Part shown: positions 929 to 56,517 of the stretch, piece after piece
Layout of the letters: each line of letters begins with the position of its first letter
Position numbering within the stretch: the first letter of the stretch is position 1
The notes under the pieces: generated by a model
Told to the model about the DNA's origin: nothing
The model's database searches: none
Seen by the model: only the letters and a program-made list of their open reading frames with translations
DNA from: Zancudomyces culisetae
Lineage: Eukaryota > Kickxellomycota > Harpellomycetes > Harpellales > Legeriomycetaceae
Direction: 5' to 3'
NCBI GenBank assembly: GCA_001969505.1
Contig: LSSK01000632.1
Span: 1 to 56,517 of the forward strand
Length of the DNA stretch: 56,517 bases
Program-made: the position numbers and the translations under genes

Positions 929-2840
929 ATGGCCAGCACCACCGAAAAAGACGGATTTAATTGCTTGGCCTGTGCGGAATGCTCAAAGGCAGGATACTGT
1001 GCGGTATGCCTTGGTGGTAGGTAAGGATAACAATATTTTCACTATATCCAATTTGCGTAGTTTTTAATGAGGATAAAATAGTGGATGGGAAAGTGCAAAA
1101 AAAATGATAGCCGTGAAGTTTTCAAGAGTATGGAAAATAATTTATCCAACAGTAAAATGCAAATAAAACTGTCGATACGAATAATATAGACTCGAATTAC
1201 AGCAATGGATGATTAAAGCGATTCAAGAAAGAACTGAAAGGCTCAGAAATCGGTTTGGCTATAGCCATAAAAAAAAGATATTAGAAACTAAAATTGCTAT
1301 TCTCAAATCTAAAATTCAACCCTTAGAAAATAACATTATAAGCAAAAAGTCAAAGATTCATGATTACAGAAGGGTCTTGGGGGAAATGACAAAAGAGAAC
1401 AGGGAGGCAAAACAAAACAGCTACATAAGTAGCGTAATTGATCAAGACGTACAAGAAATCAAAGTGCTTGGAGCAAGGCTCCAGGAAAAGCGCACAGACT
1501 TGGACCATATTTGCAGTGAGCTGAAAGAAGCACAGGATATGCTACTAATCGAAACATGTAATGTTGTTGGAATAGATAATCGAAACGAGATATTTGGAAT
1601 CAAACAGCCAAAGCTTGAGTCTCTCTTCAGAAAAAACAAAAACAAACACGGCTTACTTTCCCGTGGTAGCAGCAGCTTCGAAAGCAAGACAGGGGTGATA
1701 GAAGGTGGTGGCGGGAGTGAAGAATTTAATTCAGTGCTGTCCTATTTTGTAGTTGTTTATAGAGTGGTATTAAAATATATGAACCTGACCGATGAAGTTC
1801 CGTTTATATTATATTTGGATGGACACGGAAACAGCAAAATTAACTCGATATACAGGGTGAACTGCGATGTAAAAAGCGGAGCAGAGACCAAAACGGTTAA
1901 GTCTATGTCTATGCTAAGTATGCGACAAAAAGAAGATACCGATAAATACCTAGGCTCATTTGGTGATTTGTATTTAGAAAACCGGCTAGACGAAAAAAAG
2001 ATGCATGGAAACTTGGCGAGGTTCATTTTAGGATATTCCATGCTGATATCGAATATGATATATATAGGAAATCGAGTAGGGAAAAGAATTCCGGTTTCAG
2101 GAAATACTGACCAAAAAATTGAAGCAAGCCAGGTTACTGATAGCTCTGATGAGTTTGAGCGTGGAATCGCTAGTAAAAGCACTGGGGAACATGGCGTGTA
2201 TTGGGATGTGGTGAGGAGTCTGCGCGAAATAATAGAATACTTTATCAGCAGAGAAGAAATTATTCCCAAATACATACTATACCCAGACTTCTATGGTGTC
2301 GTGGAACAAACAATATACAAAGTAAACGAGCTTTGCAAAATACATAATTTGAAGGGAGGTAACAAAAGCACAATCAAGAAAATAATGGGCATAAACGGGT
2401 TGTATGCTTCTAGAAAATACTATAATCAGTGTGAGGGACCAAAATCCAACACCAAGAGTACAACTAAACCCAAACTTAACAGAGGTATACATGCCGCTGA
2501 ATGCTTTAGAAAAACGAGGGATGTATACGGACATAGTCACAGAAGTCACAATACTGGTAGTGGTAATGGCATAGATACTAACATTAACAAGAGAGTTGAT
2601 GACACAGTAAAGAATGCAAATAATACTAAATATAAAAGTCTAAAAAATATATCTAAATCGAGGGTGAATGGCGATCGTAATAATACCAAAGGAAACGAAG
2701 AAAAAGAGAGAGGTGAAGACAACAAAAAGTATGACAAGTATGGTGATTATGAGGATGATGAGGATGAGGAGGAGGAGGAGGAGGAGGAGGATTATGATGA
2801 TGAGGATGATGATGAGGAGGAGGGCTGGAATATAATATAG
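929..2840 (+). CDS. ATG14: ATG14-like subunit of the autophagy PI3-kinase complex, two exons
   Basis: Proposed join of 929-1020 and 1190-2840 (580 residues). Exon 1 ends at a strong donor (AG|GTAAGG). The acceptor TATAG at 1188-1189 restores the long frame; another AG at 1201-1202 does not. The first exon supplies Cys12, Cys15, Cys18, Cys24 and Cys27 in the pattern C-x2-C-x2-C-x5-C-x2-C. A 'YCxxC' knot directly before a coiled coil is the hallmark of Atg14/Barkor. A Lys/Glu/Ile-rich coiled coil covers about residues 40-140. A segment with LGYSMLISNMIYI (about residue 310) resembles the conserved Atg14/UVRAG core. The last ~90 residues are low-complexity and end in a long Asp/Glu tract. Family role: Atg14 targets Vps34-Vps15-Vps30 to autophagosome formation sites. 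Vps38/UVRAG is the alternative, but the Cys knot favours Atg14. Confidence 0.6.
2745..2824. repeat. Acidic-codon microsatellite (gag/gat)n
   Basis: Imperfect tandem GAG, GAT and GAGGAT triplets encode the Asp/Glu-rich tail of the ATG14-like protein. The tract stays in frame up to the terminal GWNII and stop. Such tracts often vary in length between strains. Confidence 0.75.
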
Positions 2841-2968
2841 CATAACGTAGTACAGCACAGCGCAGCGTATTTTAATGTGATATAATTCAATATACTGTTA
2901 AATACCACAAACATATATTATCGAGTTGCCATTCAACATTTGTATTAACACCGGCAGCATCTGCTGGT

Positions 2969-3448
2969 TTATGATTTATCATTTGTGGTAGTGGTAGCAG
3001 TGGTGGGAGTGGTAGGAGTATCTCCGGTGGGGTTTTGAGTATTATTTTTAGAAATTGTGTTAGGATTTCCCCTTTTATTCTCTGTTTCAATGAATTTTTT
3101 GACTTTTTCATGATAGTGCTGCTTTTGGAAAATACAAGCCTTTCGAGCAACAAAGCTAAAAAGCACAAATCCACCTACAGCGTAATTTCCTGCGCTCAAA
3201 GAATTCCCAACCTTGATGAACCGCAGAAGTCCGGTGCTTAGACCCAGTCCAATCCCGTACATGTATCCGATCCTGGAACAGGGCACAAAAAAGGATTGTT
3301 TATACTCGTCAAGAGTCTGAGATTTGAATGCTTCTACATAGTTTGTTGGGTTTTTTTGTTGTTTTTCTTGTAGCTGTTGTGTAGAGAGATTTGAACCATC
3401 GTGGGTATTTTGTGGGTTTGGAAATTCGGAGTTTTGATCGGTCGCCAT
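2969..3448 (-). CDS. COX20: Cytochrome c oxidase assembly protein COX20
   Basis: A single exon of 159 residues with a true ATG at 3448. The core reads VPCSRIGYMYGIGLGLSTGL, then RFI, then NYAVGGFVLFSFVA. That is the COX20/FAM36A layout: 'PC-R-x-x-x-x-G-I-x-x-G' in the first transmembrane helix, then a second helix starting N-x-A-V-G. COX20 is a mitochondrial inner-membrane chaperone for newly made Cox2 during complex IV assembly. Residues 1-50 are polar and the tail is Thr/Asn-rich low complexity. Length is within the usual range for fungi. It is transcribed towards the ATG14-like gene, with about 128 bases between the two stops. Confidence 0.87.
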   Translation of the reverse strand: MATDQNSEFPNPQNTHDGSNLSTQQLQEKQQKNPTNYVEAFKSQTLDEYKQSFFVPCSRIGYMYGIGLGLSTGLLRFIKVGNSLSAGNYAVGGFVLFSFVARKACIFQKQHYHEKVKKFIETENKRGNPNTISKNNTQNPTGDTPTTPTTATTTTNDKS

Positions 3449-45524: not shown

Positions 45525-47053
45525 AAACCAGACAGCAACCATCATCTCCGCCACTGACAACATGCTGACCATCTGGTGAGATGTCAAAGTCTAAAACGGT
45601 GTCGTCATGCCCTTTGAACTCTCGGACAGCATGTTTGCTGTCGCTGGATCTAGCATCCCACACCCGCACAGTGCCATCTGCAGATGAACTCACAATCAGA
45701 TGACTATCAATCCATTTGAGCTTAGTTACTGCTGCCGCTTCTTCATGCAAGAACCGCGAACGTAATCGGCTGGTATTGATATCATATACGCACAGCTGGC
45801 CATCGGACGTTCCAGCTGCAGCCAGGTTTTGTTGCAATCCCACACATTCAACCGATTCGCCGTCGTTTTGCTGGTATGTGGCAACAACTGTTCCGCGGCT
45901 GGCGTGGAATATTTTTGCTGTTGAATCTTCTGATCCGGTCATAATCAGCTGATCATCCGAAGATATGTCGATGCTGGTGATTGAGTCTTGGTGGTTTCTT
46001 TTGTCATTTGGTAGGAACTTTTGCACCACTGTCTGTGTAGATGGCCCCCATACACGTACTGCACCGTCTGAATACCCGGCTACCAGTGTTCTCCCACTAT
46101 TGCTGAATCTTCCGCATGTAGTGCTGGTGACTAGATCAGTGTCAGACTGAATACCACTCAGCACATTAAGTGTAGATCCATGTACTGCATTGATCAGCCA
46201 TATTGTCGAGTCGCTGTAGCCTGCCGCGATGATATTTCCACTCTGATGCCATTGGGTCCATTGCACCTCGTTTCCCACATTTTCGTCAAACAAGCAGTGC
46301 GGCTTTACTTCTAAATTTTCCTCTATTTTGTACACACACAATCTGCCGTCCATACCAGCTGTTGAAATGTATGTGCCGTCTGAGCTAAATCCCACTGATG
46401 TCACAGAGTCTGTATGTCCTTCCATGGGATAGACAAGATCACCAGTTGCCTTATTCCACAAATATCCTTTGTCATCTCCTCCACCACTGACCACTAGATC
46501 TGGATACTTTGGATTTATACTTACACTATAAACAGGTTCTATTGAGTATTTGTCATATTAATCTTGGTGCTCTAAAAAAAACTACTTTTAGCGGACACAT
46601 CCGTGCAAATAAAGTCTATTTCAACTGGAAATTACCTTTGTGTAAGAAAAAACCTTGAACACTGTCATCCTCAAAAATAACCTGATTTTCTAATTTGGAA
46701 TTTTAGTTGCATTTTTAATGTTTTACCCAAACTAAATGATACGTAAATGAGAAAATCGAAGACCAATTTGGGGTTTTTATTGTTTTTTTATTTAAATTAC
46801 CTCCTTCTTCGTGCTCAGCATCCTCACCGGCCTCTGGTTCGAGATCTTCATCCATATATTCGCCATGCTCATTTATTACCTCTTCACCGAGAATATCGTC
46901 TTGGTTTATTATTTCCTCGACAGGATTTTCAACTATTTCGTGCTCGTCCTAAATACATAAAGATTTAGAGTAAGCACATTAATCAACGTGAGCCAAAAAG
47001 GTAAATAAACAGGTAAACATATAGTTATTCGTACTCACCTTTCGTTCTTCCAT
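45514..47053 (-). CDS. SQT1: WD-repeat ribosome-assembly protein SQT1/AAMP, four exons
   Basis: Exons on the minus strand: 47053-47039, 46948-46801, 46689-46636 and 46538-45514 (413 residues; phases 0, 1, 1). The first exon is only 15 bases (MEERK). An acidic N-terminal region precedes about seven or eight WD repeats, including VVSGGGDDKGYLWNKATGD, LVAGYSDGAVRVWG, IVSSSADGTVRVWD and a terminal HVVSGGDDGCCLVF. The order (acidic head, then EDDSVQGFFLHKEPVYSVSI leading into the first blade) matches AAMP and yeast Sqt1. Sqt1 is a dedicated chaperone for newly made ribosomal protein uL16 (Rpl10). The gene converges on the pseudouridine synthase and the two coding ends overlap at 45514-45524. Confidence 0.88.
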
Positions 47054-48176
47054 TGTGGATTCTACTCTTTATACCCTTTAAATATTGTTAACTGATAATT
47101 AGAATTTCGCCAAAGCTGAAAGAAAATGATGAGGTTTTAAAGGCTGTAAATTGAAAGTGCAAAAAAATTTTATTTCTGCAACTTATTTGGCAGAAACCTC
47201 AATTGAAAGGTTAATGGAAAAAAAATTGATTAATAATCAGAACGAGATCTTTGGATCAGAGTATTGTTTGGGCAAAAGTTGCATAGAAATTCTGATTTGC
47301 TTCTAAATAAAGAGTTTCTAGTATATTCAACCTGGCAAGGAGTTATAATTTATATGATGTGTAGTCATCAAGAAAAACATATATGGCTGAAGCGAAGGAG
47401 AATATAGACAAAATTTAATATTTATTCCATTTATCCACAGAAACAAGAGAGATAGAATAAATCAAAGCACAAAATGTTTTATAAATATAATGTGTTCAAG
47501 ACCTAAGCCGAGAACATAACCGGAAATAGGATTCGTATTTTACTATGTAAAGACTTTCAGAGCTAACAAGATGGGTTGCAACCGTCTTTGGCTAATGCAT
47601 TATAACTATCATACCTCCGATTAAATATGGGTACTAACAAACATTTTTGAAAGAAGGGGGCTAATATCCGAAAGTACATATGAATTGCCCATCGATGCAT
47701 TGTTCAGTTTTCCTGCTGAAGAAATGTATATGTTTGTTGATAAAAATACTAAAATTCTGCACTGATAATTCCAGTCGAGATTGAAAATATATCTCCCCTT
47801 GTTGTACAATAATATGACTATATTTTAATCTTTTGAACGCAGAAATTTAATAGGTGTTGGTGACAGAAGTAGCGGTAAATGTGATAATAAAAATAATAAC
47901 AGAATCACCAATACTAATAGCAATGCTAATAGTAATAGAAATTGTAACAGCACTAATAACGGTAGTAATAATAGTAATAGTAATGCTAAGGGAAAACATG
48001 TGTTGAAAAATGTAATAAAATAAAACAGGAACATCGTGGTAACTATCGATATTACATTACATTTTTCCATCCATTGACCCCTACTATGCTCTCCATTTCT
48101 TCAGTCCTCCCTGACATTCTTATCCAACTACATAAAACACACATTACTAGACCTCAGACTATTCCCAAGTACACAC
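47054..48176. other. Intergenic, SQT1 upstream region and FOX2 copy A downstream arm
   Basis: 47054-47820 is AT-rich with no gene. 47868-47985 is an imperfect AAT/AGT/AAC triplet repeat. From 47980 onward the sequence is the reverse complement of the right end of the window (56517 back to 56321), part of the FOX2 inverted repeat. Confidence 0.7.
47868..47990. repeat. Imperfect trinucleotide repeat (aat/agt/aac)n
   Basis: Many triplets of the type aat, agt, agc and aac with a 3-base period, for example gtagtaataatagtaatag. Read on the minus strand they give a Leu/Leu/Val string, so the open frame there is an artefact. The repeat lies at the mirrored limit of the inverted-repeat arm visible in the window. 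Confidence 0.75.
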
Positions 48177-50222
48177 TTAAAGCTTAGAGTTTTGTGATGC
48201 TGAAACCTTGGCTGGCTCTGAAAACTCTGCAATTCCATTAGCAATCACTTGCACGTTTCTTTCAATCACTCTAGCATTAAACAATACCACCTTTGGATTG
48301 GCTGAATCAATCCACATGCTTGTTTCAATGGTTTCTCCCGGGAATACTGGTGATGAGAATCTCACCTTAATTGCCTTCAGCTTTCTACCATCCTTCTGTG
48401 CCATAGTGTTCACTACATGTCTTGCTGCATGACCCATACTACACAGTCCGTGCAGAATTGGTTGGTCAAACTTACCCATGGCTGCCATTTCTGGATCAAT
48501 GTGTAGTGGGTTATAATCACCAGACAACCTGTAAATTGCAGCTTGGTTTGGCCCAATTTGCTGTGCTACAACTGCATCTGGTGTTCTCTTTGGTGCAGCT
48601 ACTACTGCTGTTGCAACTGGGTTTCTCTTTGGTGGTGATGGTTTCTTGAATCCTGGTGCCTTGCTAAATCCTCCAATACCTCTGATAAATGCTGTAGATT
48701 CAGCCTCTGCAATCAAATTGCCGCTTGTATCTTTCATAACAAGACGGCTTACAACCGCTGCACCACTGCCCTTATCAGCAATATCAACCAGTTCAGGTGT
48801 GCATAAAAGTGTTCCGGATGTTGGAAGTGGCTTGTGGATTTGAACAAATTGCTCACCATGAAGCAACATCATTGGGTGAAACTTGGGCAAGTGTTTCTGG
48901 AAAGTTGATTTGACGAAAAACGCAGGAATCACTGGGTATGTAGGGAAGACTTGGAAATCGGGGGAGTTTTCATACACAATGTTCAAATCGTGACGAGAAG
49001 CACCAATACCGACGGCATATAGCATGACATCGCGTTCAGTGTATTTGAACTCCTTTGTCTCTCCGACATCTGCACGTGCAGCTTCTACATCGACTGATAC
49101 TTGCTTAGGCGCTTTCACATTTTGCGCTGGTAGTTTAAAGTTAGGTCCGAACTTCTTCTTTAGTATTGTAGTGAGAATCTCCTTTGTACGTGCAGGAACG
49201 CTACCCACAAAGTGTGCACGACCGTCATCAAAGTTGGTGATGGTTGGCCACATATCTCTTACAGCCTCTGGTGTAAAGGTATCGTCTGGTGTAAACATAT
49301 GTCCACCTGTGCACTGGCGACGTACTTGTCCCATCCAGCATGATCCAACTTGGAACAGCTTTCCTGAGTCCTTGTTAGAGTTGTGTACAAGGTATCCAAC
49401 AAATGGTGCGACGTATTCTGGCTTAAGCATCTCTACTATTTCTGGTGGCATGACTGTGGCTGTCATTGCTGTACCTGCATTTGGTGCAATACAGTTGACT
49501 CTGATGTTGTGCTTAGCTCCCTCAAGTGCCAGCGAGAATGTAAACCCTATCATTGCAGCCTTGCAAGAACTGTAGTTGGCCTGTCCAAAGTTTCCGTAAA
49601 TTCCTACTGATGAACTTGTGTTGATAACTGCTCCGCTCTTTTGTTGAATAAATAGTGGCCACACAGCCTTGGTCATCTTGTATGAGCCATACAGATGCAC
49701 CTTGTATACATCCTCCCATTGCTTGTGTGTCATGTTTATGAACGACTTGTCTCTCAAGATACCTGCATTATTTATGAGTATATCTACTCTTCCAAATGCC
49801 TTCAATGCAGTTCCAACTACGGCCTCACCATTCTCAACTGAGTTGTAATCTGCTACGGCTTGACCACCGGCTGATTTGATTTCAGCGACAACTTTATCAG
49901 CAGATCTGGAGCCATCTTTTGCGGATCCTACATCGTTTACAACAACCTTTCCACCATAACGGGCAAACATAAGAGCGTATGTTCTTCCCAGACCGGCACC
50001 AGCGCCAGTGACTATTATTACTTGGCCATCGTACCTCAACTCTTCACCTTGTGGGTTTGAGGCTATTTTGTTTGAGTCCTCCATAAACTTAAGATAGTTG
50101 ACCCCGTTCCTGGGTGTAGGATATGTAGCACCAGTGTTGAACTGTGTAATCTCATTGTAGCGAGCCTTGACAGCAGCAGGAGTTAGAGTGGAGTCTGACT
50201 TGAATACTGCGCCCTGAGATAA
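47980..50222 (+). repeat. Left arm of large inverted repeat (FOX2 copy A, 3' two-thirds plus 3' flank)
   Basis: The sequence is the reverse complement of 54290-56517 with few differences. In the 3' flank and hydratase region, positions pair with a constant sum of 104497 (the end of the copy A stop, 48177, pairs with 56320), so there are no net indels there. The sum becomes 104512 upstream of a diverged linker, where copy A is 15 bases longer. Similarity falls sharply above about 50222. Since 47980 pairs with the last base of the window, the true outer end of the repeat is unknown. Confidence 0.93.
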
Positions 50223-51195
50223 CTCCCAACGAACTGCTGAAACAAACCCTCCTGCTTCTTCAACAAGCATGCCTGTATCTTTTGTTGATTCATGAGTCAA
50301 ATAAGCAACCACTGGAAGTACAAACTTTGGGTCCAATTGTGCAGACATCTCTTTACTAAATGTGGAGGCCGTAAGTCCAGAGGCAGCAAGTGGTGCAATT
50401 GCATTGGATGTAATATTATATTTTGCACCCTCCTGTGCAAGTGTGTTGGAAAATCCAATAAGTGCGTGTTTGGCTGCTGAGTAGTTGACTTGGCCAAAGT
50501 TTCCATAGATTCCGGCTGGTGATGTAGTCATGATTATACGGCCATATCCCTGTTTGCGGAAAATTGGCCATGCTGCTCTTGTAATGTAGTAGGCACCAGT
50601 AAGATGTACAGCCACTATTTGATCCCATTCCTTGTCAGTCATCTTTACAAAAGTTTTGTCGCGGAGGATTCCAGCGTTGTTTATCAAGATATCAACTCTA
50701 CCGAATGCGCGCATTGCAGTCTCAATCACACGTTCGCCATTCTCCACAGAGTCATAGTTAGCTACAGCTTTTCCACCTGCGGAAACAATCTGTTCGACAA
50801 CAACGTCTGCAGCCTTTTTTGAATTTGGGTTGGTTGGATCGACAGACCCAATATCATTCACCACCACTGAGGCACCCCGTGATCCATAGTAGAGTGCATA
50901 AACTCTTCCGAGTCCTAGTTTTATGTAGATAGTTTTTCTTGTTAGGATAAAAAGATTTCAACGTTGTAATGGGGAATGGAAAGTAGGAAACAGGAAATGG
51001 AAAATGGAGGTCACTGTTTTTCTAAACTCAAGACATATATTCCGATATCCATGGACTTTTTCCACGTGCACTATCTTTCCTCACTCCACCCTATAAACAA
51101 TTAAAACAAGTTTTTATTATACTATCCGTCTTCTTACCATTTCCCGCTCCAGTGACAACTGCAACGCGTCCGTCGAACCTTAATTGATCAGCCAT
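48177..51195 (-). CDS. FOX2: Peroxisomal multifunctional beta-oxidation enzyme Fox2, copy A, two exons
   Basis: Exons on the minus strand: 51195-51138 and 50914-48177 (931 residues). The 58-base first exon encodes MADQLRFDGRVAVVTGAGNG and splices inside the SDR glycine motif. Domains in order: SDR A (about 1-300, active-site NYSAAKHALIGF), SDR B (about 315-600, VTGAGAGLGRTYALMFARYG and NYSSCKAAMIGF), then hydratase 2 (about 640-925) with the MaoC signature GDYNPLHIDPEMA. The C-terminus is SKL, a type 1 peroxisomal targeting signal. The family hydrates trans-2-enoyl-CoA to (R)-3-hydroxyacyl-CoA and oxidises it to 3-ketoacyl-CoA in peroxisomal fatty-acid oxidation. Yeast Fox2 is 900 residues. 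It differs from copy B mainly in SDR A, the B-to-hydratase linker and a few hydratase residues (AFFVKSTFQKH versus GFFVESTFQKY). Confidence 0.95.
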
Positions 51196-51271
51196 GTTTA
51201 GTTTTTAAAAAGTCGGATTTTGTATAGTAATATTCAAAATTTTCTGTTTTCTTTGTAAGAAAGCTATTTAG

Positions 51272-51281
51272 CTTTTTATAT
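51272..51281 (-). promoter_or_regulatory. TATA-like box of FOX2 copy A
   Basis: On the minus strand the sequence reads ATATAAAAAG, about 77-86 bases before the ATG at 51195. The spacing and form mirror the box in front of copy B. Functional use is inferred. Confidence 0.5.
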
Positions 51282-53328
51282 CATAAATTGATAAACTAAA
51301 CTAGTTTTGATACCTAAAATATTTCAGCCTTTTAGCAAAAACAATATGGGTGGTTTTTTTTTTTTGCCTATCTTAAAAAGGTAAATGCAAAAAAAAGCAT
51401 TCGCAGTGCATGCATGGTTTCAAAATCTGGCTTTCTTTTCAATGTTTGAGATTTCAATTTTCACATTATTCTTTGAGCTGGCGCAGCTTTTTCACGTTCA
51501 TGCAGAAGAGATGTAGCTGACATTTCCATTGGCTAAAAACGATTAATTTGCTGGGATTTTATCAAATGGAACAAAAAGAGAAGCAAGGCTCATGAAATTC
51601 CTGTATCTAATGTCTGTGATAAAGGAAAAAGAAACAAACCAAAGTTGGTGTGTAGACTTTCAACAGCAACCACACAAAGCGGTTTTATTGGCCAACCATC
51701 GCCAAATGCAGGTTTTTCTTGATTCAGGTTTTGCATTGTTTTTTGTATTTATTTGGTTGTAGCGCTTTATGTATTTTCTGGCGGTCATCAATTACTAATA
51801 TATGAAAAGCAGCTAGGTTCAAAAAGCTTGTGCAAAGAGAGCATGGCGAACCAGTTCAGGTTCTAGAGTTGAAAAGGGTATGTTGTGCTCCAATATTAAG
51901 TGACTAAAATTACTATTACCAACCTAGTCCTACTATTTCTGGATTGTAGACTATTTATGGAAATGCACTAACCTCAAAAGTGCAGATATATTTTGTTAAT
52001 ACTTATGATAAAAGGGGTTTTTAAAGCATGTAAAACTTGTAAATACAATTATTAAGTGTGATCTACTATAGAGAAGTTCTTTATTATGTCTTTAAGGGAG
52101 TACTACCAGGGTTGTGCAATTCATACTATGGTCAGTACTTGGTAATTTTAATGTATACAAAGCCTGGATTATGAACTTTTTTTTTTTAAAAAAAATAATG
52201 CTATAACTGAAACTTGAAACTTGAAAACTGAAAACTGAAGAAATAGAATACAGACCATAAAATTGTCCTTTGCAAAAACCACGCATCGAAACTCGTAAAT
52301 CTCATAACACTTTTTATTCTGTACTGTTTTTTCTTTTGACCAGAATTGCAACACTGTCCGGAACTCTACAGGATTCACCAAACTTCGCAGTACAGAGCAG
52401 CTCAATTATGTACATATGCCTAGAGCGTACGCAGCTCATTAGTTTTCATGGTATCCCCACCCCTTTCATCCTCCTGGTTCCCCTAATAAAAAGGTCGTCG
52501 GTTTACACTTTACCACGGCCCTAATTATGCCAAAAACGTCATAGTATTATTTTATAGTCATGAGCCAGGTGTTGGTATGGATAAAATATATTTGTTCTTA
52601 TTTTATGATGAATATCCAATTAATGTATCCACACCCGTAATAAAACAGCGGTATTTTTTGCTATTTCTGGTAGCTAAGGCTCGGCGGTATCTACTTTACC
52701 TCTTCTAACAAACAGCAACATTGCCATATGCTACATCAAAGGCATCGATATCATATGCTGGAAAGGTCGCGGATATTTTACTTTCTGTTTTCTGTACCCT
52801 CAATTCTGCTAAGCCCGGGATTCTCAAACTCAGCTCTAGAAATGCTCTATGATTTTATTAGCCAGGAAAAGCACGCTACGCTTGAAAAATAAATATCCTA
52901 AGATTGTTTTTGAAACCAAAAAATTGTTTCATGACAATGGGCTTAATTTATCTACATATGAAAAAAAAATCCTTACAAATGCAAAGGAAATGAGTGGTCT
53001 GAGCCAACGAAAAACCAGAATACAGTAAAATTACAGAAAAACCTCCAATCACTTAATTTCTCTGCGTTGACTCCGATTTGTTTGCGAAAAAGGCAAATTT
53101 GCAAAAAAAGCAAAAAAAAAAGCGAGAAAAAATGGCAAAAGAAGGAAATGCAGCTCGGATTTGAACGGACCAGCGTAGATAATCACGTTCCAAATATCTT
53201 CATATAGGGCTATGAAAATTCTACGTTTAGTAAGGAGAAAGGTTCGCTCAATACAGGGGCAGTGCAGTTGTTTAGAAATCCAAAACAAGTGAACGCAATT
53301 ACACTACGCCCCCTCCCATTTCACTAAC

Positions 53329-53338
53329 TATATAAAAG
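53329..53338 (+). promoter_or_regulatory. TATA box of FOX2 copy B
   Basis: TATATAAAAG, 84-93 bases before the ATG at 53422, preceded by a C-rich patch (cgccccctccc, 53308-53318) that contains CCCCT, the core of a fungal stress-response element. Functional use is inferred from position. Confidence 0.6.
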
Positions 53339-53421
53339 CCAAACAATTGTATAGAAAATGTCGTTAGAAAGATTAAAGTACTTTTCTAAAAGATCAATAA
53401 AATAAAACTTAAACTTTAAAA

Positions 53422-56320
53422 ATGGCTAAAGAACTCAGATACGACGGAAGAGTCGCAGTTGTTACTGGAGCTGGTGGTGGTGAGTGTAAATAATTACAAA
53501 ATATAACAGCACTTGTACATAAACTCTGTGGATTTTTCAATATGCACAGGTTTATACAAAGAGTTAGTAACAAACTAAACAATACACATAAAAATAGGAT
53601 TGGGTAGACTCTATGCCTTGCACTATGGCGCCCGTGGCGCGTCCGTGGTTGTTAACGATTTGGGTGTGTCATTGTTGGGAGAAGCAGGCTCAAGTCGCCC
53701 AGCAGACGCAGTAGTTGCTGAGATTAAGGCAGCAGGTGGAAAAGCTGTTGCTAACTACGATTCTGTTACAAATGGAGAGAGTATCATTGAGACTGCAATG
53801 CGTGTATTCGGTAGAGTTGATATAATTGTGAACAACGCCGGAATCCTCCGCGATAGAACATTCGCTAAAATGACCGACAAGGAATGGGAGCAAGTGTTGA
53901 GTGTTCATTTGACAGGTTCTTATTCAGTTACAAGAGCAGCATGGCCAATTCTCCGTAAACAGAAATATGGCCGCGTAATTATGACTGCATCGCCATCCGG
54001 GCTTTATGGTAGCTTTGGTCAAGCCAACTACTCAGCAGCCAAACACGCACTGGCCGGATTTGCAAGTTCATTGGCACAGGAGGGTGCAAAATATAATATT
54101 ACTTGTCACACCATTTCGCCTATCGCCTTATCACGAATGACAGAAACAGTGGGAAATATTGAGTACTATAAACAGCTGACACCTGAAAGCATCGTACCAG
54201 TGGTGGCATATCTAACTCATGAGTCTGTCACAGAAACAAACAAGCTCATTGAAGCTGCTGGAGGGTTTGTAGGTGCTTCAAGATGGCAATTATCTCAGGG
54301 CGCAGTGTTCAAGTCAGACTCCACTCTAACTCCTGCTGCTGTCAAGGCTCGCTACAATGAGATTACACAGTTCAACACTGGTGCTACATATCCTACACCC
54401 AGGAACGGGGTCAACTATCTTAAGTTTATGGAGGACTCAAACAAAATAGCCTCAAACCCACAAGGTGAAGAGTTGAGGTACGATGGCCAAGTAATAATAG
54501 TCACTGGCGCTGGTGCCGGTCTGGGAAGAACATACGCTCTTATGTTTGCCCGTTATGGTGGAAAGGTTGTTGTAAACGATGTAGGATCCGCAAAAGATGG
54601 CTCCAGATCTGCTGATAAAGTTGTCGCTGAAATCAAATCAGCCGGTGGTCAAGCCGTAGCAGATTACAACTCAGTTGAGAATGGTGAGGCCGTAGTTGGA
54701 ACCGCATTGAAGGCATTTGGAAGAGTAGATATACTCATAAATAATGCAGGTATCTTGAGAGACAAGTCGTTCATAAACATGACACACAAGCAATGGGAGG
54801 ATGTATACAAGGTGCATCTGTATGGCTCATACAAGATGACCAAGGCTGTGTGGCCACTATTTATTCAGCAAAAGAGCGGAGCAGTTATCAACACAAGTTC
54901 ATCAGTAGGAATTTACGGAAACTTTGGACAGGCCAACTATAGTTCTTGCAAGGCTGCAATGATAGGATTTACATTCTCGCTGGCACTTGAGGGAGCTAAG
55001 CACAACATCAGAGTCAACTGTATTGCACCAAATGCAGGTACAGCAATGACAGCCACAGTCATGCCACCAGAAATAGTAGAGATGCTTAAGCCAGAGTATG
55101 TCGCACCATTTGTTGGATACCTTGTACACAACTCTAACAAGGACTCAGGAAAGCTGTTCCAAGTTGGATCATGCTGGATGGGTCAGGTACGTCGCCAGCG
55201 TTCTGGTGGATACACCTTTGTTCCAGACAATACCTTTACACCAGAGGCTGTAAGAGATATGTGGCCAACCATCACCAACTTTGATGATGGCCGAGCTAAA
55301 ATCATTTTGAACGGCAAAGAAGGATCGCAGGATATTGTAAAAAACATTACCGCCATGAGACAAAGATCTGCTAGTGGTGCCAAACCTGCTGGATCAGTCA
55401 TTGTGGATGTAGAGGCTGCACGTGCAGATGTCGGAGAGACAAAGGAGTTCAAATACACTGAACGCGATGTCATGCTATATGCCGTCGGTATTGGTGCTTC
55501 TCGTCACGATTTGAACATTGTGTATGAAAACTCCCCCGATTTCCAAGTCTTCCCTACATACCCAGTGATTCCTGGGTTCTTCGTCGAATCAACTTTCCAG
55601 AAATACTTGCCCAAGTTTCACCCAATGATGTTGCTTCATGGTGAGCAATTTGTTCAAATCCACAAGCCACTTCCAACATCCGGAACACTTTTATGCACAC
55701 CTGAACTGGTTGATATTGCTGATAAGGGCAGTGGTGCAGCGGTTGTAAGCCGTCTTGTTATGAAAGATACAAGCGGCAATTTGATTGCAGAGGCTGAATC
55801 TACAGCATTTATCAGAGGTATTGGAGGATTTAGCAAGGCACCAGGATTCAAGAAACCATCACCACCAAAGAGAAACCCAGTTGCAACAGCAGTAGTAGCT
55901 GCACCAAAGAGAACACCAGATGCAGTTGTAGCACAACAAATTGGGCCAAACCAAGCTGCAATTTACAGGTTGTCTGGTGATTATAACCCGCTACACATTG
56001 ATCCAGAAATGGCAGCCATGGGTAAGTTTGACCAACCAATTCTGCACGGACTGTGTAGTATGGGTCATGCAGCAAGACATGTAGTGAACACTATGGCACA
56101 GAAGGATGGTAGAAAGCTGAAGGCAATTAAGGTGAGATTCTCATCACCAGTATTCCCGGGAGAAACCATTGAAACAAGCATGTGGATTGATTCAGCCAAT
56201 CCAAAGGTGGTATTGTTTAATGCTAGAGTGATTGAAAGAAACGTGCAAGTGATTGCTAATGGAATTGCAGAGTTTTCAGAGCCAGCCAAGGTTTCAGCAT
56301 CACAAAACTCTAAGCTTTAA
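53422..56320 (+). CDS. FOX2: Peroxisomal multifunctional beta-oxidation enzyme Fox2, copy B, two exons
   Basis: Join of 53422-53479 and 53598-56320 (926 residues). The first exon is again 58 bases (MAKELRYDGRVAVVTGAGGG) and is split at the same codon and phase as copy A; the intron is 118 bases with donor GTGAGT. Domain order is as in copy A: SDR A with GLGRLYALHYG and NYSAAKHALAGF, SDR B, hydratase 2 with GDYNPLHIDPEMA, and terminal SKL for peroxisome import. SDR A is clearly diverged from copy A (for example SVDPTNPNSKKAADVVVEQI versus SLLGEAGSSRPADAVVAEI). From about 54290 to the stop the DNA is almost the same as copy A. The inter-domain linker (about 55296-55400) is different and 15 bases shorter. 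Both copies look intact and active. Confidence 0.95.
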
Positions 56321-56517
56321 GTGTGTACTTGGGAATAGTCTGAGGTCTAGTAATGTGTGTTTTATGTAGTTGGATAAGAATGTCAGGGAGGACTGAAGAA
56401 ATGGAGAGCATAGTAGGGGTCAATGGATGGAAAAATGTAATGTAATATCGATAGTTACCACGATGTTCCTGTTTTATTTTATTACATTTTTCAACACATG
56501 TTTTCCCTTAGCATTAC
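54290..56517 (-). repeat. Right arm of large inverted repeat (FOX2 copy B), truncated by the window edge
   Basis: The mirror of 47980-50222. Similarity runs through SDR B, most of the hydratase domain, the stop and the entire 197 bases of 3' flank present in the window, where I see no differences by eye. Diverged islands inside the arm are at about 55199-55235 and 55296-55400. The arm continues past 56517. Confidence 0.93.

Follow-up and report, generated by a model that had tools for sequence, protein, structure and literature searches.

Zancudomyces culisetae, a gut fungus of fly larvae (Harpellales), carries two copies of FOX2, the gene for the fat-degrading peroxisomal multifunctional enzyme type 2 (MFE-2), in opposite orientation at the end of one contig. 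Over some of their domains the copies are nearly identical, and over others they are strongly diverged. What could have made the divergence of a single gene pair so uneven along its length?

The FOX2 locus

The window, by which we mean the whole stretch of DNA analysed (56,517 bases), is the complete contig C93, which ends at base 56,517 with the FOX2 pair in its last 9 kb. A first-pass annotation of the window had described two complete FOX2 genes facing away from each other, and the gene models, the domains and the C-terminal ends bear this out: the two MFE-2 paralogs lie back to back and are divergently transcribed (Table 1). The spliced product of gene 1 has 931 aa and agrees letter for letter with a database protein (P0001), the product of gene 2 has 926 aa in all, and the intron follows the same codon region in both genes. 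In each protein, Pfam matches comprise two SDR stretches, an MFE-2 hydratase N domain and a MaoC domain, and each protein ends in -SKL, presumably a peroxisomal targeting tail. The glycine-rich region (TGAGNGLG/TGAGGGLG) and the Ser-Tyr-Lys region (SPAG...NYSAAK/SPSG...NYSAAK), which we take to be the active-site motifs of SDR A, are intact in both copies. The architecture is the same as in the solved relatives of the FOX2/MFE-2 family (2et6, 3oml, 1s9c and 1pn2) and is in itself ordinary; the odd feature is the mosaic of identity between the two Z. culisetae copies. The spacer between the start codons presumably holds both promoters and, to judge from its sequence, is not homogenised.

Table 1. 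Features of the FOX2 pair and its flanks, in window coordinates
Feature	Position	Strand	Remarks
FOX2 gene 1, exon 1	51195-51138	-	start codon, splice signs, reading frame
FOX2 gene 1, intron	51137-50915	-	splice signs
FOX2 gene 1, exon 2	50914-48177	-	rest of SDR A, SDR B, linker, hydratase 2, stop
FOX2 gene 2, exon 1	53422-53479	+	
FOX2 gene 2, exon 2	53598-56320	+	rest of SDR A, SDR B, linker, hydratase 2, stop
Region between start codons	51196-53421	.	2226 b; its two sides do not match each other in BLAST
SDR A, taken as unconverted, gene 1 exon 2	50223-50914	-	pairs with 53598-54289
SDR A, taken as unconverted, gene 2 exon 2	53598-54289	+	211/691 columns differ; dS 1.21
Tract T1 (SDR B), gene 1	49330-50204	-	6/875 columns differ
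Tract T1 (SDR B), gene 2	54308-55182	+	6/875 columns differ
Divergent linker island, gene 1	49083-49329	-	contains T2 at 49225-49282
Divergent linker island, gene 2	55183-55414	+	contains T2 at 55230-55287
Tract T3, gene 1: hydratase and the flank part mirrored inside the contig	47980-49082	-	
Tract T3, gene 2: hydratase and 3' flank to contig end	55415-56517	+	
Match to the end of contig C515	47787-47845	+	59 b identical
Triplet-rich stretch (AAT/AAC-like)	47846-47979	+	mirror would fill the C93-C515 gap, given the presumed join

Identity along the two copies

Self-comparison by BLAST found one long inverted repeat in the window, 47980-50944 against 56517-53568. Along this repeat, the SDR A part of exon 2 is 69.5% identical, an edge of 18 columns follows with one difference (54290-54307), and the SDR B tract is then 99.3% identical, the switch from SDR A to SDR B being completed within 18 bases. 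The linker island drops to 65.5% identity (80 of 232 columns differ, with 15 further gap columns), and the hydratase segment (55415-56320) returns to 99.3% (6/906 columns differ). Identity then crosses the stop codon, and with it the border between coding and non-coding sequence, into a 3' flank with no difference in 197 columns (56321-56517). In alignments that include the solved structure 2et6, a conserved Arg-Trp close to the C-terminal border of SDR A immediately precedes the first step, which thus lies within an exon and near a module edge.

Synonymous sites change in the same stepwise manner. As against 1.21 in SDR A exon 2, dS is as low as 0.015 in the hydratase and 0.049 in the SDR B segment, the codons of the edge being counted with the latter, whereas the linker reaches 1.09. 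In 40-codon windows the synonymous difference falls from 0.56 (codons 221-260) through 0.23 (codons 241-280) to 0 (codons 261-300). The dN/dS of SDR A is ~0.22 (0.271/1.206), and its divergence has therefore taken place under purifying selection. The longest identical run has 527 columns, as compared with a maximum of 142 in 5000 shuffles of the 304 differences over 2919 columns; because this permutation test ignores rate variation, the synonymous sites and the relatives were also used.

Inside the linker island lies a patch (T2) in which all 58 columns are identical. The island between SDR B and hydratase, with this patch in it, makes the pair a mosaic of at least three tracts, and a uniform palindrome of 8.5 kb is ruled out by the divergence of the island. 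Four of the six hydratase differences fall inside 30 bases (55575-55604 in gene 2, 48922-48893 in gene 1), three of these four alter the residue, and the cluster appears to be a small relic patch. Set against the residues of relatives, the few clustered hydratase differences gave no clear polarity. No clear trend pointing to GC-biased conversion was seen in third-position GC either (0.35/0.37 in SDR A, 0.42 in SDR B and 0.36 in the hydratase).

These figures modify the earlier description, in which near-identical arms with a 3' flank identical by eye stood next to an unconserved 5' third and spacer. Near-identity holds for SDR B and the hydratase but not for the linker island, which is as diverged as SDR A, while the flank is as described. 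The spacer is indeed not conserved between its sides, but SDR A is clearly homologous in the two copies and thus conserved, though without homogenisation. It had also been suggested to check whether identity is lost gradually or in steps, and whether synonymous divergence in the arms equals that of SDR A: the loss is stepwise, and SDR A exceeds the arms in dS by a factor of ~25 to 80.

Outer limit of the arms

An outer arm edge at 47980, as given by the first-pass annotation, is ruled out, this position being the mirror of the contig end at 56517. When 46500-48180 was searched against the Z. culisetae contigs, the terminal 59 bases of contig C515 (99,347 b; positions 99289-99347) were found to be identical to 47787-47845, and upstream of 47787 the two sequences match at 20 of 100 bases, which is chance level. 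From this, the outer boundary is likely to lie at 47787. In the simplest reading, the reverse complement of C515 would follow C93 past a gap that mirrors the triplet-rich stretch, a join that we infer. Because of this boundary and this join, the arms are taken to run from 47787 to about 50222, ~2.4 kb each. The 59-base match may also be an assembler overlap at the repeat, which would mark the same boundary.

Two minor observations concern these sequences. Bases 47885-47984, largely within the triplet-rich stretch, match four other contigs (C230, C156, C142 and C778) at 71-82% over 57 to 100 bases. The end of C515 (L019) holds two neighbouring reading frames on the minus strand, 1272-1856 and 2811-3386, of 194 and 191 aa; they are alike by eye and have a hydrophobic start, and are possibly a tandem pair encoding secreted proteins.

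Copy number and repeat background

A FOX2 DNA search of 23.1 Mb of Z. culisetae contigs gave two matches, both in the window. The corresponding protein search of the same contigs gave 15: the two genes of the window and 13 weak matches (E 2.6e-13 at best; shown identities at most 52%), the latter being read as other SDR or hydratase genes. A third FOX2 copy that might have served as donor was thus not found in the 23.1 Mb of contigs, but the published draft, from which the window presumably comes, is ~5.6 Mb larger (28.7 Mb in an excerpt of PMC5954228) and may contain a further copy. As a small sample of the repeat background, 20 contig starts (200 kb) held no inverted and three direct repeats of at least 200 b at E <=1e-10.

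Relatives and the age of the duplication

Relatives were drawn from two protein searches (the best 120 of 7,884 and the best 120 of 7,713 matches). Among the matches listed, FOX2 is represented by two entries from Smittium megazygosporum, three from S. culicis, two each from S. mucronatum and S. simulii, and one from Furculomyces boomerangus. The Smittium copies fall into groups alpha and beta and, like those of Z. culisetae, number at least two per species. Within the four Smittium species, protein identity between the main two paralogs (the third S. culicis entry, P0036, being left out) is 59/51/59, 59/57/57, 58/64/58 and 57/55/58% for SDR A/SDR B/hydratase. These paralogs are thus evenly diverged across the catalytic domains, at 51-64%, whereas the Z. 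culisetae pair is uneven (67/100/99%). Since the domains do not differ in the Smittium paralogs, domain-specific constraint is not the cause of the unevenness. The Smittium paralogs sit on contigs of unequal size, in contrast to the Z. culisetae pair on its single contig.

In domain trees, the Z. culisetae copies are at near-zero distance for SDR B and the hydratase; for SDR A, the placement of which is weakly supported, their branches measure 0.25 and 0.30. With the unconverted columns, five of the six trees compared were not rejected, and the best tree has the pair as sisters. For example, the AU test gave 0.29 for gene 1 with alpha and gene 2 with beta, 0.27 for both with alpha and 0.30 for both with beta; the arrangement with gene 1 in beta and gene 2 in alpha was rejected (AU 0.035). 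Over these columns the two genes are separated by 0.79 substitutions per site, and in that tree the alpha copies of S. megazygosporum and S. culicis are almost equally far apart (0.77). Judged by their Ser-Tyr-Lys region, the two Z. culisetae genes resemble alpha and are unlike beta. An old duplication is the best explanation for the origin of the pair.

Explanations for the mosaic

The two copies show an abrupt synonymous step, identity that runs across the end of the coding sequence, and histories that differ from region to region, and very probably the mosaic results from ectopic gene conversion between the inverted FOX2 paralogs. Among the other explanations, stronger purifying selection on SDR B and the hydratase than on SDR A, with no exchange at all, would be in keeping with the protein identity of the two domains, but the synonymous sites and the non-coding flank are also near-identical, and in Smittium SDR B and the hydratase are no better conserved than SDR A. 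Synonymous and flank identity rule out selection by itself, and this explanation is given practically no weight, in agreement with the earlier view that the pattern is unlike that expected from selection. A short-read assembler could also have merged 3' halves that in truth differ and used the one consensus twice. The published draft was made from Illumina short reads, and repeats can collapse in such assemblies (both from excerpts of PMC12611240); moreover, the contig ends inside an arm, and the contigs amount to 23.1 Mb against the 28.7 Mb of the draft (PMC5954228, in excerpt). On the other hand, the two SDR A parts, the two linkers and the two outer flanks each continue directly into the shared sequence, single differences are kept separate within the tracts, and a search of the 23.1 Mb of contigs gave no FOX2 3' half standing alone. 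On these sequence features a collapse at the arms seems unlikely, and an artefact of this kind as the source of the mosaic is highly improbable.

Somewhat less improbable, though still an outside candidate, is a single recent event in which a segment of ~2.4 kb, from SDR B to the 3' flank, was copied once to give a chimeric gene, either by template switching or by one-sided strand invasion closed by end joining. Both edges are abrupt, at the step in exon 2 and at the fall to chance level outside 47787, as such an event would predict, but the linker island with its 58-base identical patch and the clustered hydratase differences require either two or more tracts or a repair that is patchy.

Gene conversion, in turn, is well supported by the stepwise synonymous change, the flank identity, the putative relic patches and the even divergence of the paralogs in relatives. 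Homologous repair would have copied sequence between the inverted copies more than once, and this copying would have made SDR B, the hydratase domain and the 3' flank near-identical or kept them so; each tract may stem from one copying event. Exchange in the linker would be hampered by low identity and indels. SDR A and most of the linker probably escaped in this way, with exchange stopping where identity is low and indels occur, perhaps aided by selection that favoured keeping the two SDR A domains different. The inverted, closely spaced arrangement suits exchange, while the abrupt outer edge, from 100% identity to chance level, calls for end joining or for the duplicated unit to have ended there. 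The mosaic, the synonymous step, the identical flank and the even divergence in relatives are observations, whereas how repair proceeded, when exchange took place and whether the SDR A domains differ in function are matters of inference. Exchange could have been ongoing since the duplication or could have overwritten a pair that had already diverged; of the recent gene conversion first proposed, the conversion is thus upheld, but it need not be recent, and exchange may date from the duplication onward.

Comparison with a Saccharomyces flip/flop region

The nearest described case that we found is the flip/flop region of Saccharomyces chromosome XIV (YNL018C/YNL034W), where, according to excerpts of PMC9731477, the arms of an inverted repeat undergo homogenisation and the spacer between them changes orientation. 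Going by that description, the two loci share inverted fungal gene copies that gene conversion keeps alike (probably so in Z. culisetae), within-species copies that are more alike than their age predicts, and arms too similar for easy short-read assembly. The Saccharomyces case, in the same excerpts, involves 4.2-kb arms, a 24-kb spacer, many strains, long reads and an observed inversion, whereas the Z. culisetae locus has ~2.4-kb arms, ~4.1 kb between the inner steps and a single short-read assembly. Near-identical inverted arms of the flip/flop type are found here in T1 and T3, with the linker island interrupting them, and homogenisation also differs in that it halts inside a coding exon and skips the linker. 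By analogy, we would liken the Z. culisetae pair to the homogenisation half of the flip/flop system; inversion of the spacer, raised in the first-pass annotation, would be a reasonable extrapolation from the Saccharomyces region and is possible at this locus.

No earlier description of the Z. culisetae pair was found in the open-licence literature, among the matches listed; the one open-licence match for Harpellales together with gene conversion was a review on orthologs (PMC6759064), and Zancudomyces together with FOX2 had no match there. The pair is a new example of a process that is already known. From an early-diverging fungus, it offers a clear-cut natural example of concerted evolution that affects only part of one enzyme, and if the pattern recurs in relatives, it could be tested whether tract borders in a multidomain protein reflect recombination alone or selection trimming the tracts. 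There is also a warning for annotation, as the duplication would be dated much too recently in trees built from SDR B or the hydratase, and arms of this kind can interrupt short-read contigs.

A domain step in Smittium culicis

A comparable step is found in S. culicis, in a comparison of proteins only, with two of the three (P0036 and P0129) named as partial. P0003 matches P0036 at 613 of 616 residues through SDR A, SDR B and the linker as far as the hydratase motif FPTF; beyond it the matching residues number 159 of 252. The step may reflect homogenisation with the polarity reversed, or else a fault in gene models or assembly, and it hints at a recurrence of conversion. It is conceivable, if doubtful, that the FOX2 paralogs of Harpellales evolve in concert module by module, and repeatedly so, with some modules homogenised and others private and able to specialise. 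In Z. culisetae, the common modules would then be SDR B and the hydratase, with SDR A and the linker private, an assignment we offer tentatively. With similar reserve, in S. culicis SDR A, SDR B and the linker could be common and the rest of the hydratase private. If this were true, conversion and selection would together have split one multidomain enzyme into a common core and a private module. P0129 agrees with P0003 at 59 of 64 residues before FPTF and at 162 of 252 after it. P0036 and P0129 have GSYNPLH, and P0003 and P0006 have the conserved GDYNPLH, the Asp of which we take to be catalytic.
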